NCBI GenBank assembly: GCA_028824015.1
Contig: JAPPFC010000025.1
Location: 1 to 53,969, forward strand
Length of the DNA: 53,969 nt
Reading direction: 5' to 3'
From: a bacterium
GTDB taxonomy: Bacteria > Actinomycetota > Acidimicrobiia > Spongiisociales > ZC4RG35
Position 1 is the stretch's first letter. Every line of letters starts with the position of its first letter. The translations under genes were made by a program, and so were the position numbers. The notes below the pieces were generated by a model. It had not been told where the DNA came from, did no database searches, and saw only the letters and a list, made by a program, of their open reading frames with translations. This document shows, piece after piece, positions 15,048 through 33,669 of this stretch.

Positions 15048-15464
15048 TCAGAGGGACCCGCGAGGTACCACCCATTCGCAGGGTTGCCGGGTGACCTCAA
15101 CGATGAGGTCGAAGTCGGCGTCATAGTGGATAACCGTTAGGTCGTTGACTTCCGCTACGGCGGCAATCAGCAAGTCAGGCAGAGAAACCCGATGGCGGCC
15201 AAGTCGCGCCAATCTGTGCTGGACTTCCATGGCGCGATCTGTCGATTCTTCGGTCAGCGGATAAGAGGGCAGGGCTCGCCGTTCTGAGAGGATGCTCTCG
15301 TAGTCAGCGAGGGACCGGGCGCTGTAGAGGATCTCGAGGTCGATGATGGGAGTGGTGGCGACCAAGCCGTTGAGCAGGAGTGGCCCCAGTCGAGTTGCCA
15401 CCGGTTGTTGAGGAAGTCTTGCGAGAGCGCTCTTGTCAGCCAGCCACTGTGGCGCTACCGCCAT
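15048..15464 (-). CDS. vapC: PIN-domain toxin, VapC type
   Basis: Predicted 138-residue PIN-domain ribonuclease. The acidic site is recognisable: Asp10 (LADKSAL), Glu44 (DLEILYSAR), Asp97 (SLPDLLIAA) and Asp115/Asp117 (HYDADFD). It is the toxin of a type II module; targets of VapC proteins are usually tRNA or rRNA, but the target here is unknown. The gene overlaps the upstream antitoxin by 10 bp, which is the typical vapBC arrangement. Confidence 0.9.
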   Translation of the reverse strand: MAVAPQWLADKSALARLPQQPVATRLGPLLLNGLVATTPIIDLEILYSARSLADYESILSERRALPSYPLTEESTDRAMEVQHRLARLGRHRVSLPDLLIAAVAEVNDLTVIHYDADFDLIVEVTRQPCEWVVPRGSL

Positions 15465-15736: not shown

Positions 15737-16456
15737 TCACAGGCTGCGGCCGCCGTCGATGAGCATCACCTGTCCGGTGATGAAGAGTGACCTGTCCGAG
15801 CAGAGGAAGGAGATCAGATCGGCGATCTCCTCCGGTTCGGCGGCCCTTCGCAGGACGGCGGTGTTTACCAGCCTCTCTCTCAGCTCGGGACGCATCGAGC
15901 GGCTCAGGATGGATTCGGTGAACCCGGGCGCCACGATGTTGACCCGGATCTTCCGGGGCGCCAGTTCCCGGGCCAGGGCCCTGGTCATCCCGATCAGCCC
16001 GCCCTTGGACATGGTGTAGTTGAACTGCCCGAAGCTTCCCAGGTAGGCCCGCGACGAGATGCTCACCACCGCCGACCCCTCTCCCAGGAACGGGATCAAC
16101 CGTCGGGTGAGTTGGTAGGCGCCGCCCAGGTTCACCCCGATTACCACCGAGAATTGTTCGTCGGTCATGTTCACCAGTCGGACGTCCCGGATGATCCCGG
16201 CGTTGTTGACCAGCGCCGCCAGCGCGCCTCCCCGGTCCTGCATCGCATCCACGATGGCCTGGCGTCCCTGCGGGGTGGCGACGTCTGCCACGATGCCCCG
16301 GGTATTCCGGCCGCCGTCCAGGGTGGCGGCTGTCTCTATCACGGCCGGGTCGAGATCGGCCATCAGGACGTGGAATCCCTCCTCGATGAACCGCATGGCG
16401 GTGGCCAGGCCTATCCCCCTTCCGGCGCCGGTGATCACCGCGGTGGGCCTGGTCAC
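15737..16456 (-). CDS. SDR oxidoreductase, FabG4-like catalytic domain
   Basis: Predicted 239-residue short-chain dehydrogenase resembling 3-oxoacyl-ACP/CoA reductases. It shows TGAGRGIG for NAD(P) binding, the NNAG motif and the active-site pattern SSRAYLGSFGQFNYTMSKG (Ser, Tyr, Lys). The C-terminus FITGQVMLIDGG is typical. Its ATG overlaps the stop of the upstream gene as ATGA. That upstream product resembles the degenerate N-terminal domain of mycobacterial FabG4, so together the two look like a FabG4 protein split into two subunits. The thiolase gene upstream on the same strand fits fatty acyl-CoA metabolism. Confidence 0.87.
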   Translation of the reverse strand: MTRPTAVITGAGRGIGLATAMRFIEEGFHVLMADLDPAVIETAATLDGGRNTRGIVADVATPQGRQAIVDAMQDRGGALAALVNNAGIIRDVRLVNMTDEQFSVVIGVNLGGAYQLTRRLIPFLGEGSAVVSISSRAYLGSFGQFNYTMSKGGLIGMTRALARELAPRKIRVNIVAPGFTESILSRSMRPELRERLVNTAVLRRAAEPEEIADLISFLCSDRSLFITGQVMLIDGGRSL

Positions 16457-16908
16457 GGGAGTGCCTTTCCCAGATGGATCGAGCCGAGACGGATCAACTC
16501 GCCGGTGGTGCCGGGGTTGTCCAGAAGGCGGGCCACCCAGTTCGCGACGGTCTCCGGTTCGACATCCTCGACGGTCGCAAGGACATTGGCCGGGATTCCC
16601 GCCTTGGCGGTCTCCTGGGCCAGGTCCCGGGCGGCCGATAGGAGACCGGTGGCAACCATGGCCTTTCCCGCCCCCCGTTTTCCAAGGAGGTCGGGGCTCC
16701 CGACCACGTAGACCACCGGCGCTCCCGCCCGGGCCGCCTCCCGGGTGAGCACGAACGCCTCGGTCAACTCATCCGACACATCCTCCCACTCCTCCCCGAG
16801 GGTCTCATCGGTCCAGAACACCAGGCCATGGGAGGTGGTTCCCGGCTCCACACCCGCTCGGGCCAGCCTTTCCCTCCAATCCGGTGGAACTCTCAAGTAG
16901 CTACGCAA
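16453..16908 (-). CDS. Degenerate Rossmann protein like the FabG4 N-terminal domain
   Basis: Predicted ~151-residue protein with no SDR catalytic tetrad. Its layout (SHGLVFWTDETLG, then a long helix, VVYVVGSPDLLGKRG, and a C-terminal TTGELIRLGSIHLG) parallels the flavodoxin-like N-terminal domain of high-molecular-weight FabG (Rv0242c type). The start is tentative. TTG 16908 gives LRSYLRVPPDW and avoids the thiolase gene, whereas the longer frame to 17154 overlaps the thiolase C-terminus antisense-free but out of frame. The gene is coupled to the SDR by ATGA. Confidence 0.65.
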   Translation of the reverse strand: MRSYLRVPPDWRERLARAGVEPGTTSHGLVFWTDETLGEEWEDVSDELTEAFVLTREAARAGAPVVYVVGSPDLLGKRGAGKAMVATGLLSAARDLAQETAKAGIPANVLATVEDVEPETVANWVARLLDNPGTTGELIRLGSIHLGKALP

Positions 16909-17027: not shown

Positions 17028-18236
17028 TCAGACTCGTTCCACCACCAGGGAGATTCCTTGTCCCGTCCCGATGCACATGGTCGCCAGCCCGTATCCGCCT
17101 TCTCTGCGGGACAGTTCGTGCACCAAGGTGGTGAGTATGCGCGCCCCGGAACAACCCAGGGGATGACCCAGAGCGATGGCTCCGCCGTTCACATTCACAA
17201 CCTCCGGGTCGATGTGGAGTTCATTCCGGCATGCCACCGCTTGGGCTGCGAATGCCTCGTTCAACTCCACCAGGTCGAGGTCGTCAACATCCAGGCCGGC
17301 CCGAGCCAGGGCCTTTTCGGAGGCGGGGACCGGCCCGATCCCCATCAGGTCGGGATGAACGGCGGCCACCCCCGAGGAGACCAACCGGGCCATGGGGGTC
17401 AGCCCGGTCCTCTCCAGTCCGGCGGCCGTGGCCAGGATCACTCCGGCGGCGCCGTCGTTAATGGGCGATGCATTGCCGGCGGTGACTGTCCCGCCTTCCC
17501 GGAATACCGGACGAAGTCCGGCCAGAGCCTCCATGGAGGTATTGGGTCGGGGGCCCTCGTCAGAGGTGATCAGGGCGATGGTCCGTTTCTTGGGCCCCAC
17601 CGGAGCCTCTATCGGGACTATCTCGTCGTCGAATCTTCCGGCCTGCTGGGCGGCGATAGCGTTCCGGTGGCTGGTCAGGGCGAATCGGTCCTGATCGATC
17701 CGGGTGACTCCGTACTTGGAGGCGACCTCCTCGGCGGTCTCGCCCATGTTGATGGGCGGGTACATGGCCTGCATGCGGGGGTTGACCAGCCGCCATCCCA
17801 GCACGGTGTCGACCATTTGGGGAGCGCCCACCGCGTAGCCTCTTTCTGGTTTGGTTACCACGAAGGGAGCGCGGCTCATTGCCTCCGAACCGCCCGCGAT
17901 CATCACGTCTCCCCAACCTGCAGCCAACGACTGAGCAGCGGTGATGACAGCCTGCAAGCCCGAACCGCACAGACGGTTGACGGTCTGACCGGGAATCTCG
18001 ATGCCCAGACCCGCCAGGAGCGACGCCATACGGGCTACGTTCCGGTTGTCCTCCCCGGCCTGGTTGGCGGCGCCCCACACCACGTCCTCCACGTCCACGG
18101 CCTCCAGGCTGGGGTTGCGATCCATCAGGGCTCGGACGACGTGAGCGGCCAGGTCGTCGGGCCGCACGGCGGCGAGTTGCCCTCCGATCCGACCCATGGG
18201 AGTGCGGCAAGCATCGACGATGAAGACATCGGTCAT
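17028..18236 (-). CDS. Acetyl-CoA acetyltransferase (thiolase)
   Basis: Predicted 402-residue thiolase II/acyl-CoA acetyltransferase. Catalytic residues are visible: nucleophilic Cys in VNRLCGSGLQAV, His in NGGAIALGHPLGCSGAR and the second Cys in the same motif. The C-terminal MCIGTGQGISLVVERV is canonical. It catalyses either thiolysis of 3-ketoacyl-CoA or condensation of two acyl-CoAs. Genes for a split FabG4-like reductase follow on the same strand, consistent with a beta-oxidation or reverse-type acyl-CoA pathway. It is divergent from the DUF169 gene over about 150 bp. Confidence 0.93.
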   Translation of the reverse strand: MTDVFIVDACRTPMGRIGGQLAAVRPDDLAAHVVRALMDRNPSLEAVDVEDVVWGAANQAGEDNRNVARMASLLAGLGIEIPGQTVNRLCGSGLQAVITAAQSLAAGWGDVMIAGGSEAMSRAPFVVTKPERGYAVGAPQMVDTVLGWRLVNPRMQAMYPPINMGETAEEVASKYGVTRIDQDRFALTSHRNAIAAQQAGRFDDEIVPIEAPVGPKKRTIALITSDEGPRPNTSMEALAGLRPVFREGGTVTAGNASPINDGAAGVILATAAGLERTGLTPMARLVSSGVAAVHPDLMGIGPVPASEKALARAGLDVDDLDLVELNEAFAAQAVACRNELHIDPEVVNVNGGAIALGHPLGCSGARILTTLVHELSRREGGYGLATMCIGTGQGISLVVERV

Positions 18237-18389
18237 ACGGGAACCATCCTAATCCCAGTGGCGTCCTGGCGGCGAGGAAGCGACGGAAGCTCCTTGCAGC
18301 AGCCTCGGATGGGGTGGCGGGGACCGGGCCCACCGTGCGTCTGAGGATTATGCTTGGCCGCACGGTTCCCTTTGATTCAAGGAGTTAGC

Positions 18390-19112
18390 ATGGCCACCGA
18401 CTGGAGAGACCTGTCCGAACGGCTCAGCGGTTTGCTCGGACTGGAGCACGCCCCCATCGCCATTACATTTTCGGAGGAGCCCGTCTCTTCGGAGAGTGGG
18501 ATCGCTCCCTTCGGGGGCCCGTTGTCGGAGCCGACTCCGGACGGCAGATCGGGGGCGGTGCCTGCTCCCTGCGTCTTCTGGATGCACGCCCACACCCGCA
18601 CCTTCTTCACCACCCCCGATGATCACGGCAACTGCTCGGTGGGCGAGTACACCCACGGCCTGGTTGAGGCCGGAGACATCCTCGATCGGGAGGATGTGGG
18701 AGCTTTGCTGGAGGTTGGCTGGGTCACCATGGAGGCCTTTGCCGGGGTGGCTGCCCTGGAGCGCCGGCCCTCCTCGATTGTGTACGGACCGCTCGCCGAC
18801 ACCCCGAGCGACCCTGATGTCGTTCTGCTGAGGCTGAGCCCCTACCAGGCCATGGAGTTGGGTGACGCGGTCGCCATCAATCTCAGCGGCAAGCCCCAGT
18901 GCCAGATTCTTCCCATCGCCATCGACCAGGCCAAGGTGACGCTGTCGATGGGATGCGCACTGTCAAGGGCGCGCACCGGGATGGGCGACGACGAGTTGAC
19001 CTGCGCCATTCCGCCAGGACAACTGGCGGAGATCGTTGCGAACCTGGAAGGCGTGGTGGGCGCCGACAAACAGGTGGTCGGCTACGCTCACGCCGACGCC
19101 GCTCGTTTCTAG
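18390..19112 (+). CDS. DUF169-family protein
   Basis: Predicted 240-residue protein of the DUF169 family: an N-terminal LSGLLGLEHAPIAITF segment, a central CVFWMHAHTR with NCSVGEYTHG, and a C-terminal ...TLSMGCALSRARTGM stretch. The conserved cysteines (FWMH-adjacent Cys, NCSVG, MGCAL) hint at a metal or redox role, but the family has no established function. The start at 18390 has AAGGAG about six bases upstream. No operon partner is evident; it stands between divergent thiolase and downstream lacI control region. Confidence 0.75.
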   Translation: MATDWRDLSERLSGLLGLEHAPIAITFSEEPVSSESGIAPFGGPLSEPTPDGRSGAVPAPCVFWMHAHTRTFFTTPDDHGNCSVGEYTHGLVEAGDILDREDVGALLEVGWVTMEAFAGVAALERRPSSIVYGPLADTPSDPDVVLLRLSPYQAMELGDAVAINLSGKPQCQILPIAIDQAKVTLSMGCALSRARTGMGDDELTCAIPPGQLAEIVANLEGVVGADKQVVGYAHADAARF

Positions 19113-31658: not shown

Positions 31659-33017
31659 TCAGCCCACCACCGGTATCCGCTGCATGGCCTCGGCGACCTT
31701 GTCGTCCGGATACTCGTAGTCGGTCAGGCCGCCGGCCAGATAGTTGTCGTAGGCGGCCATATCGAAGGCGCCATGTCCGCACATGGCGGTGAGGATCACC
31801 TTCTCCTCGCCGCTCTCCCGACACTCATTGGCCACTCGGATGGCCGAAGCCAGGGCATGGGTGGGTTCGGGAGCGGGGACGATGCCCTCGGTCCGGGCGA
31901 ACTGGACGCCGGCCGCGAAGCACTCGTTCTGTCCGATGGCTTCCGCCTCTATCAGCCCCAGGTCATAGATGTGGGAGAGCAGAGGAGACATGCCGTGGTA
32001 GCGCAAGCCCCCGGCATGGATCGGATCGGGTATGAACGAGTGGCCGAGGGTGTGCATCTTGATGAGCGGAGTCATCCCGATGGTGTCCCCGAAGTCGTAC
32101 CGGTACTCGCCCTTGGTGAAGGAGGGGCAGGAGGCAGGCTCCGAGGCCCGGATGACCGGATCGATCCTCCCGGCCAGTTTCTCCCGCAGGAAGGGGAACA
32201 TCAGTCCCGAGAAGTTGGAACCGCCCCCGGTGCAGCCCACTATCACGTCGGGGGTGTCCCCGGCCATGGCCATCTGATCGAGGGCCTCCTCGCCGATGAC
32301 GGTCTGGTGGAGCAGGACATGATTGAGAACGCTCCCCAGCGAGTACTTGGCCTCCGGGTTGGTGGCGGCAACCTCGACGGCCTCCGAGATGGCGATCCCC
32401 AGGCTCCCCGGCGAATCGGGATCGGATTCGAGGACGGTCCGCCCGGCATTGGTCGCATCGGAAGGCGAGGGATGGACTGTGGCGCCCCACACCTCCATCA
32501 TCGATTTGCGGTAGGGCTTCTGGTCGAAGGAGGCTCGCACCTGCCAGACTTCACACTCCATTCCGAAGATGGCGCAGGCCAGGGCCAGGGCGGAGCCCCA
32601 CTGTCCGGCGCCGGTCTCGGTGGTCAGCTTCTTGACGCCTTCCTGGGCGTTGTAAAAGGCTTGGGCCACCGCCGTATTGGGCTTGTGGGAACCGGCCGGG
32701 CTTCCTCCCTCGTACTTGTAATAGATGCGAGCGGGCGTGTCGAGCGCCTTCTCCAGTCCGGTCGCCCGGTAAAGAGGAGTGGGCCTCCACATCCGATAGA
32801 CATCGATGATCTCCCCGGGGATGTCGATCCGGGAGTCCCCCGACACTTCCTGGAGGATGAGGGCCATGGGAAAGAGAGGAGCCAGATCGTCGGGGCCCAC
32901 CGGCTGATGCGTTCCGGGATGAAGCACCGGAGGTGGCGGCGCCGGCAGATCGGGAATGATGTTGTACCAACTGGTGGGTATCTGGGACTCGGCGAGAGTA
33001 AACTTCCTTTGAGCCAT
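31659..33017 (-). CDS. TrpB2-like PLP-dependent enzyme
   Basis: Predicted 452-residue protein of the TrpB2/TrpB-like (type II tryptophan synthase beta) group. PLP Lys112 lies in [16 protein letters not shown]; the phosphate loop is [12 protein letters not shown]. The extended N-terminal region [13 protein letters not shown] is the TrpB2 hallmark. It can make tryptophan from indole and serine in characterised relatives. No trpA or trp gene adjoins it here, so it is probably a stand-alone indole-scavenging enzyme. The start at 33017 has GAGG about eight bases upstream; a longer frame to 33131 antisense to the divergent gene is discarded. Confidence 0.92.
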
Positions 33018-33090
33018 CGTCGATCCTCTTTCTGCTCGGTTGCTTTCGATTGTGGCTGATATTAGATAACCCGACAATGCAGTTAGGCAG

Positions 33091-33669
33091 ATGACTGTCA
33101 GCCCTCCCGAATCCCTTCCCTGGACCAACAATCCCGACGCCGACCGCCTGTTGGCGGAGGACAGTCTGGCGCTTCTGATCGGGATGCTGCTCGATCAGCA
33201 GTTCCCCATGGAGCGTGCTTTCTTCGGTCCCTACCTGCTTCAAGAGCGGCTGGGAGGACCACTGGACCCCGGCGAGATCGCCGATTGGGATCCAGAGGAG
33301 TTCGCCGCCATATTCCGGGGCCCTCCGGCCATACATCGCTACCCGGCGTCCATGGCCAAGCGCACCCAGGCTCTCTGCCGGACCTTGGTCGATGAGTATG
33401 ACGGCGCGGCCGACCGTCTCTGGAACGAAGCCGCAGACGGAAGGGAGTTGTACAAGCGCCTGAAGAGCCTGCCCGGGTACGGGGAGATGAAGTCACGGGT
33501 GTTCGTGGGGATCCTGGGCAAGCGCATGGGGATTCAACCACCCGGTTGGCAGGACGAAGCCGCCCAGCGCCCCTCCATCGCCGATGTGGCTCGGTGGGAG
33601 GACGTGGCGGAGTTGCGGGCAATGAAGCGGGAGATGAAAAAGGCCGCCCAAGCGAAGAAGAAGGGTTAA
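33091..33669 (+). CDS. HhH-GPD family DNA repair-like protein
   Basis: Predicted 192-residue protein of the small actinobacterial HhH-GPD type. It has an N-terminal [21 protein letters not shown] segment, the helix-hairpin-helix [20 protein letters not shown] and a very basic C-terminus ([14 protein letters not shown]). HhH-GPD members are base-excision glycosylases or lyases. The canonical catalytic Asp downstream of the hairpin, as seen in EndoIII, is not evident here, so activity is uncertain. It is divergent from the TrpB2-like gene over 73 bp. Confidence 0.85.

Follow-up and report, generated by a model that had tools for sequence, protein, structure and literature searches.

The window, a 53,969-nucleotide stretch of an Acidimicrobiia contig (JAPPFC010000025.1), carries a small cassette on its minus strand: a thiolase gene, the remnant of a CoA-transferase gene, and two coupled genes, the first encoding a protein that we refer to as the half-SDR and the second a catalytic SDR that we refer to as the partner (Table 1). 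The first-pass annotation had placed two coupled frames behind a thiolase gene, and this layout was confirmed: both genes are real, their frames are open at the coordinates in Table 1, and the thiolase gene precedes them in the same orientation. The junction had been read as ATGA; in the window it is GTGA, and the ATGA variant was found in some relatives. The thiolase scored above the TIGR01930 cut-off, and its best NCBIfam scores were to PcaF-like thiolases, under their cut-offs.

Table 1. Features of the half-SDR cassette in the window.
Feature	Position	Strand	Evidence
Thiolase (acetyl-CoA C-acyltransferase), 402 aa, upstream cassette gene	17028..18236	-	PF00108 E 1e-77, PF02803 E 7.9e-51
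Remnant: start of a family III CoA-transferase gene, remainder deleted in this genome	16969..17027	-	comparison with L031
Half-SDR, putative pseudo-subunit, 151 aa, TTG start at 16908	16453..16908	-	translation; AlphaFold2 model
Shine-Dalgarno-like GGAAAGG within the final codons of the half-SDR gene; spacing to the SDR start 7 nt	16464..16470	-	sequence
GTGA: start codon of the SDR gene overlaps stop codon of the half-SDR gene, 4 nt	16453..16456	-	sequence
Catalytic SDR partner, 239 aa, GTG start at 16456	15737..16456	-	PF13561 E 4e-54

Three other frames in the window were noted by eye. Immediately downstream of the SDR gene, a frame of 138 aa (15048-15464, minus strand) has the look of a PIN-domain (VapC-type) toxin. 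Beside the thiolase gene, on the opposite strand, lies a frame with a DUF169-type look (18354-19112, plus strand) that is conserved in the genus loci. The third (31659-33131, minus strand) resembles a TrpB-like tryptophan synthase beta (TrpB2), and similar frames are found ahead of the cassette at loci of the genus (e.g., L031, 15-1025).

The arrangement of the two coupled genes is strictly conserved. The partner gene directly follows the half-SDR gene, with the same overlap, in all 28 loci fetched from the 28 class genomes that carry the half-SDR, and the 4-nt overlap RTGA was present at 32/32 junctions (32 genomes: these 28 and four divergent cases). An SD-like 4-mer was located 5-18 nt upstream of the SDR start at 27 of the 32 junctions. 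Together with the SD site of the SDR gene itself, the start/stop overlap would hold the output of both proteins in step. The idea that a frameshift or assembly error at 16453-16460 breaks a single fused gene has virtually no chance of being right, since the same overlap occurs in 32/32 genomes, the SD-like site in 27, and the protein ends are conserved on both sides of the junction; judged by these comparisons, an artefact is excluded for practical purposes.

To describe the fold of the half-SDR, we used an AlphaFold2 model (27 family members; pLDDT 91.7, pTM 0.88). Five strands are predicted, and strands (E) and helices (H) follow in SDR order: E2-6, H9-17, E29-32, H41-60, E65-70, H71-74, H80-99, E107-112, H118-129, E138-141, and H144-147. 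The 50 VIA-align matches listed were all SDR chains of 212-267 residues, BbsC included, and were tied at Z 15-16, with an rmsd of 2.1-2.5 and 140-151 of the 151 residues aligned. The Foldseek matches listed were likewise SDR folds, with 4cql chain K at rank 1. According to the model and to strand labels that reflect our reading of the alignments, the half-SDR is an SDR missing approximately 90 residues (strands 2-3 and the glycine-rich loop), and is predicted to retain strands 4-7 and the two long dimer-packing helices, alpha-E and alpha-F. The motif TGxxxGxG is absent from its sequence, and the N-S-Y-K tetrad is not found: in the alignment, the positions of Y147 and K151 of the partner are occupied by K82 and A86, the latter being nearly invariant across the family. 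Judged from its sequence, the half-SDR is therefore a non-catalytic protein without the nucleotide-binding half and the catalytic residues.

Searches with the window half-SDR gave little. No Pfam family scored above its cut-off; NCBIfam yielded SDR matches alone, all sub-threshold and to the C-terminal part of SDRs; phmmer against the PDB returned only weak FabG matches; and NF006110 gave no match at E<=1. Half-SDRs range overall from 122 to 156 aa, and 13 of the 27 aligned members are shorter proteins of 122-128 aa beginning near strand 4, lengths that depend on the chosen start codons. With four near copies (L002-L005) omitted from the count, conservation peaked in the loop after strand 5, in alpha-F, and at the C-terminus. 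The C-terminal conservation may partly reflect the embedded SD site rather than protein contact.

A class-wide search found the half-SDR in 28/296 genomes at E 1.2e-19 or better; at E<=0.01 the number rose to 78/296, those beyond the 28 being weak matches with E above 1e-4. The family of the window, of which 28 genomes were sampled, accounts for 26 of the 28. A separate search with a partner profile detected the partner in 29/296 class genomes at E<=1e-75, namely the same 28 and G245. The latter is the sole genome with a partner match but no half-SDR match, and its SDR gene runs off the end of a contig of 4,428 bases. In G192 and G198 the pair is broken across contigs, and in none of the 296 class genomes did we find one gene together with a readable site for the absent other. 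G288 carries two copies of the pair, on separate contigs (C252 and C181). Furthermore, the pair occurs in several lineages of Actinomycetota: 58 phylum genomes matched at E<=1e-5, among which L067, L070, and L093 were checked in full and L068 and L069 by BLAST, and these five checked genomes give a minimum for the distribution beyond the class. Half-SDRs from the five other genomes in the genus were 76-93% identical to that of the window, and the 21 remaining aligned rows 43-57%. Within the genus, dN/dS was 0.07-0.17 for the half-SDR (five pairwise comparisons) and 0.17-0.20 for the partner (four comparisons); these sequence comparisons indicate that the half-SDR gene is under purifying selection.

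The product of the second gene had been taken for a catalytic SDR, and its sequence agrees with that assignment. The partner carries the glycine motif TGAGRGIG, and T9, G10, G14, G16, N109, S135, Y147, and K151 are invariant in 26/26 aligned partners, so that both TGxxxGxG and the N-S-Y-K tetrad are intact. D34 is also invariant in these 26. In FabG4-type enzymes a single aspartate is described as conferring NADH preference (PMC6008564, PMC8007833), and we infer by analogy that D34 occupies the equivalent position. By sequence, the partner is a classical catalytic SDR, probably of the NAD type.

FabG4 (Rv0242c type, NF006110) is one chain of approximately 450 aa in which a degenerate SDR part is followed by a catalytic SDR part. 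The pair shows the same order, but in two polypeptides whose genes overlap by 4 nt. A resemblance of the small protein to the FabG4 N-domain had been proposed from the window sequence, and this holds by way of divergent members, whereas the window family alone gives a tie: its profile scored 37.7 against the FabG4 N-domain, 37.5 against the FabG4 C-domain, and 36.8 against the partner SDR. In hhalign, three divergent half-SDRs that belong to a different family (L070, L093, and L135) matched the window family at 97.4% (score 70.1) and the FabG4 N-domain at 93.7% (score 50.2), against 0.4% and 15.6% for catalytic SDRs, the 0.4% being the value for the FabG4 C-domain. An extended profile of all members matched the FabG4 N-domain at 94.2% with a score of 52.0; its scores against the C-domain and the partner SDR were 42.7 and 44.8 (hhalign). 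The alignment covers residues 102-215 of the 226 of the N-domain, i.e., the last ~110 residues only, and the L070 half matched NF006110 at positions 84-201, the N-domain part (E 1.8e-5).

FabG4 was not among the 50 VIA-align rows listed for the model of the window half-SDR or among those for the divergent L070 half (pLDDT 88.2). In Foldseek, the L070 model matched FabG4 chains at ranks 2, 4, 18, and 45 in 148-155 columns, and the other rows listed needed 157-249 columns; the short, gap-poor FabG4 alignment suggests that the N-domain is the aligned part. The N-domain of HMwFabG is described as having seven strands (PMC8007833), whereas five are predicted in the half-SDR, which is without most of strands 1-3 of the FabG4 N-domain. 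Profile evidence thus argues for a remote homology between the half-SDR and the FabG4 N-domain that is limited to its last ~110 residues. The partner scored 163.2 bits against the NF006110 cut-off of 410 bits, below the family threshold.

In three trees, split partners and FabG4 C-domains formed separate clades, each with 99-100% support. The partners were sister to the FabG4 C-domains at 92/95 in a tree with a wide outgroup and at 88/92 when six long rows were removed. The sister relation was lost in a tree that kept the very long row L137, and in a tree of only three groups the placement of FabG4 relative to the pair was unresolved. For the 92/95 tree, 12 of the 30 extra SDR loci fetched were dropped by a motif filter, two more (the SDR of the pair itself and the G349 FabG4) were excluded by choice, and the other outgroups were randomly thinned; the L137 tree was built without 13 near copies and with the 26 outgroup rows, out of 28 candidates, that passed a coverage filter. 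The FabG4 stem is long, and long-branch attraction is possible. The partners are probably sister to the FabG4 C-domains, with moderate (88-92% bootstrap) and sampling-sensitive support. The likeness to the FabG4 catalytic domain that had been suggested for the second product therefore survives as a sister relation in two trees, with the partners outside the FabG4 C-domain clade.

The comparison of fused and split forms within Acidimicrobiia, as raised in the first-pass annotation, turned out one-sided: a FabG4-family match above the NF006110 cut-off was found in 0/296 class genomes (best few candidates per genome scored), and the split pair in 28. Among phylum genomes, FabG4 exceeded the cut-off in 22/198, and two genomes, G349 and G385, combine a fused FabG4 with a split pair. 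The claim that a FabG4 gene is split at this locus must be abandoned in view of the 32/32 overlaps, the separate clades, and the partial coverage of the N-domain. Our best reading of the sequence comparisons is that the split system is anciently related to FabG4 and did not arise by breakage of a FabG4 gene at this locus. Most likely, the split and fused architectures share an ancestor, and the reciprocally monophyletic clades are compatible with fission as well as with fusion. If a fused FabG4-like ancestor had undergone fission and the N-domain had then lost its front part, the resulting pair would work like FabG4. The homology of the half-SDR to the FabG4 N-domain, the sister placement of the partners, and a thiolase near FabG4 in 20/20 fetched loci (30-35% identical to that of the window) speak for such an origin; however, no fused form is nested within the split clade, the two clades are reciprocally monophyletic, and the class has no FabG4 above the cut-off, so we consider fission a serious but rather unlikely alternative. 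The converse, that FabG4 originated by fusion of a two-gene form still represented by the pair, is a speculative proposal that we consider rather unlikely. Equally tentative is its corollary that a stand-alone half-SDR exists solely to complete a catalytic SDR.

To place the pair in a pathway, we compared its neighbourhoods in the window, in two longer loci, and in 18 fetched regions. Of these 21, 16 contained a thiolase gene and five did not, and a family III CoA-transferase gene was present in 11 and absent from ten. MaoC hydratase genes were recognized by homology in 7/21 (in L115, 9 kb away), two of them confirmed by Pfam. Acyl-CoA carboxylase carboxyltransferase genes were found within 9 kb in 9/21 and biotin carboxylase genes in 8/21, counts taken from protein clusters of which one representative each was identified by Pfam. 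The carboxyltransferase loci are L115, L117, L119, L120, L121, L122, L123, L125, and L131, eight of which also have the biotin carboxylase.

MaoC hydratases and FabG-type SDRs act on (R)-3-hydroxyacyl-CoA. Our best guess for the role of the pair is therefore an (R)-specific 3-hydroxyacyl-CoA dehydrogenase that supplies the thiolase. Judging by the CoA-transferase and the carboxylase, the substrate may be a branched or dicarboxylic acid, and the nearby carboxylase genes hint at a branched-chain or isoprenoid acid pathway. Because thiolase and CoA-transferase are not universal neighbours, the substrate pathway is only loosely tied to the pair. A thiolase gene is near FabG4 as well, and the gene of the hydratase HtdX is described downstream of FabG4 (PMC6008564).

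The CoA-transferase gene has been lost from the window. A 132-bp segment comprising the thiolase end and the remnant is 88% identical to the thiolase/CoA-transferase junction of L031, and after the remnant the sequence continues directly with the stretch that precedes the half-SDR gene. No ortholog was found elsewhere in the same genome (G000; best 37% identity), and no match above 38% identity was found in G000, G164, G262, or G129. The whole gene is present in G251, whose thiolase is 95% identical to that of the window, and in G236. A remnant of the window type was not seen in G164, G262, or G129, so at least two losses of the CoA-transferase are likely.

SDRs usually pair through two equal subunits. 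In FabG4-type dimers, as described in PMC8007833 and PMC6008564, N-domain helices touch the C-domain of the opposite protomer; according to PMC8007833, the N-domain contributes alpha-4 and alpha-6 to this packing, and the C-domain of the opposite protomer contributes alpha-11 and alpha-13. By this precedent we propose that the half-SDR caps its partner likewise, through the FabG4-type helix surface, helix equivalence being assumed. We think it probable, with considerable room for doubt, that the pair, anciently related to FabG4, forms a heteromeric (R)-3-hydroxyacyl-CoA dehydrogenase in which the half-SDR is a minimal pseudo-subunit; we infer the assembly, stoichiometry, substrate, and reaction direction of this enzyme. 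The 239-aa SDR would bind NAD(H) and interconvert (R)-3-hydroxyacyl-CoA and 3-oxoacyl-CoA, the compound on which the neighbouring thiolase acts. The 151-aa half would most likely pack its alpha-E and alpha-F on the same helices of the catalytic subunit, stabilising it and standing in for a second catalytic subunit.

Pseudoenzymes often serve tethering or chaperone-like roles. The half-SDR could accordingly be an independent factor, a tether of thiolase, CoA-transferase, and SDR or an assembly chaperone, and its gene lies between the thiolase or CoA-transferase gene and the SDR gene in many loci. We consider this unlikely: the strict pairing is with the SDR, not with the thiolase (16/21) or the CoA-transferase (11/21), and the helices that the half-SDR keeps are those by which SDRs pair.

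To our knowledge, the closest characterised SDR with an inactive subunit is BbsCD, which, like the heteromeric dehydrogenase that we favour for the pair, has its inactive SDR subunit encoded next to the active SDR. BbsCD (hydroxybenzylsuccinyl-CoA dehydrogenase, 7pcs) is described as a heteromeric SDR with inactive subunits in a pathway with thiolase and CoA-transferase, the bbs genes including those for the CoA-transferase BbsEF, the SDR pair BbsCD, and the thiolase BbsAB (PMC10818641). This gene content resembles that around the pair, and the half-SDR model matched BbsC (7pcs chain A) with Z 15.3, an rmsd of 2.3, and 147 residues aligned. However, this Z is tied with those of many ordinary FabGs, and there is no special closeness in sequence: BbsC and BbsD scored 18.3 and 17.8 bits against the half-SDR profile, versus up to about 32 bits for ordinary FabGs. 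BbsC is moreover a full-length pseudo-subunit of 250 residues, about twice the size of the half-SDR, whose family spans 122-156 aa. That the pair is a BbsCD-type enzyme acting on substituted succinyl-CoA is thus very improbable.

Two further systems invite comparison with the proposed heteromeric dehydrogenase. The human mitochondrial ketoacyl reductase (heterotetramer; 4cql, 4cqm) is also a heteromeric SDR; its chains, however, are full-size SDRs (at least 212 residues among the matches listed), and the match of the half-SDR to them is one of general fold. The ketoreductase of modular polyketide synthases is described as an inactive structural subdomain with a catalytic subdomain (PMC5331325), a likeness by description, but it is a single chain within a megasynthase. 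In a literature search, with subscription journals mostly outside its coverage, no half-SDR subunit was described among the papers listed and no work joined FabG4 and Acidimicrobi-.

The half-SDR gene, kept with its partner, offers a natural minimal system for the role of the dead half in FabG4, BbsCD, and polyketide ketoreductases, where it may stabilise the enzyme, set cooperativity, or shape the substrate pocket. As each part has its own gene, the two proteins can be produced separately and then combined. An origin of FabG4 by gene fusion could likewise be tested with the pair; if that origin were true, the pair would be a model for the beginnings of the structural half in FabG4-like and polyketide ketoreductase enzymes.
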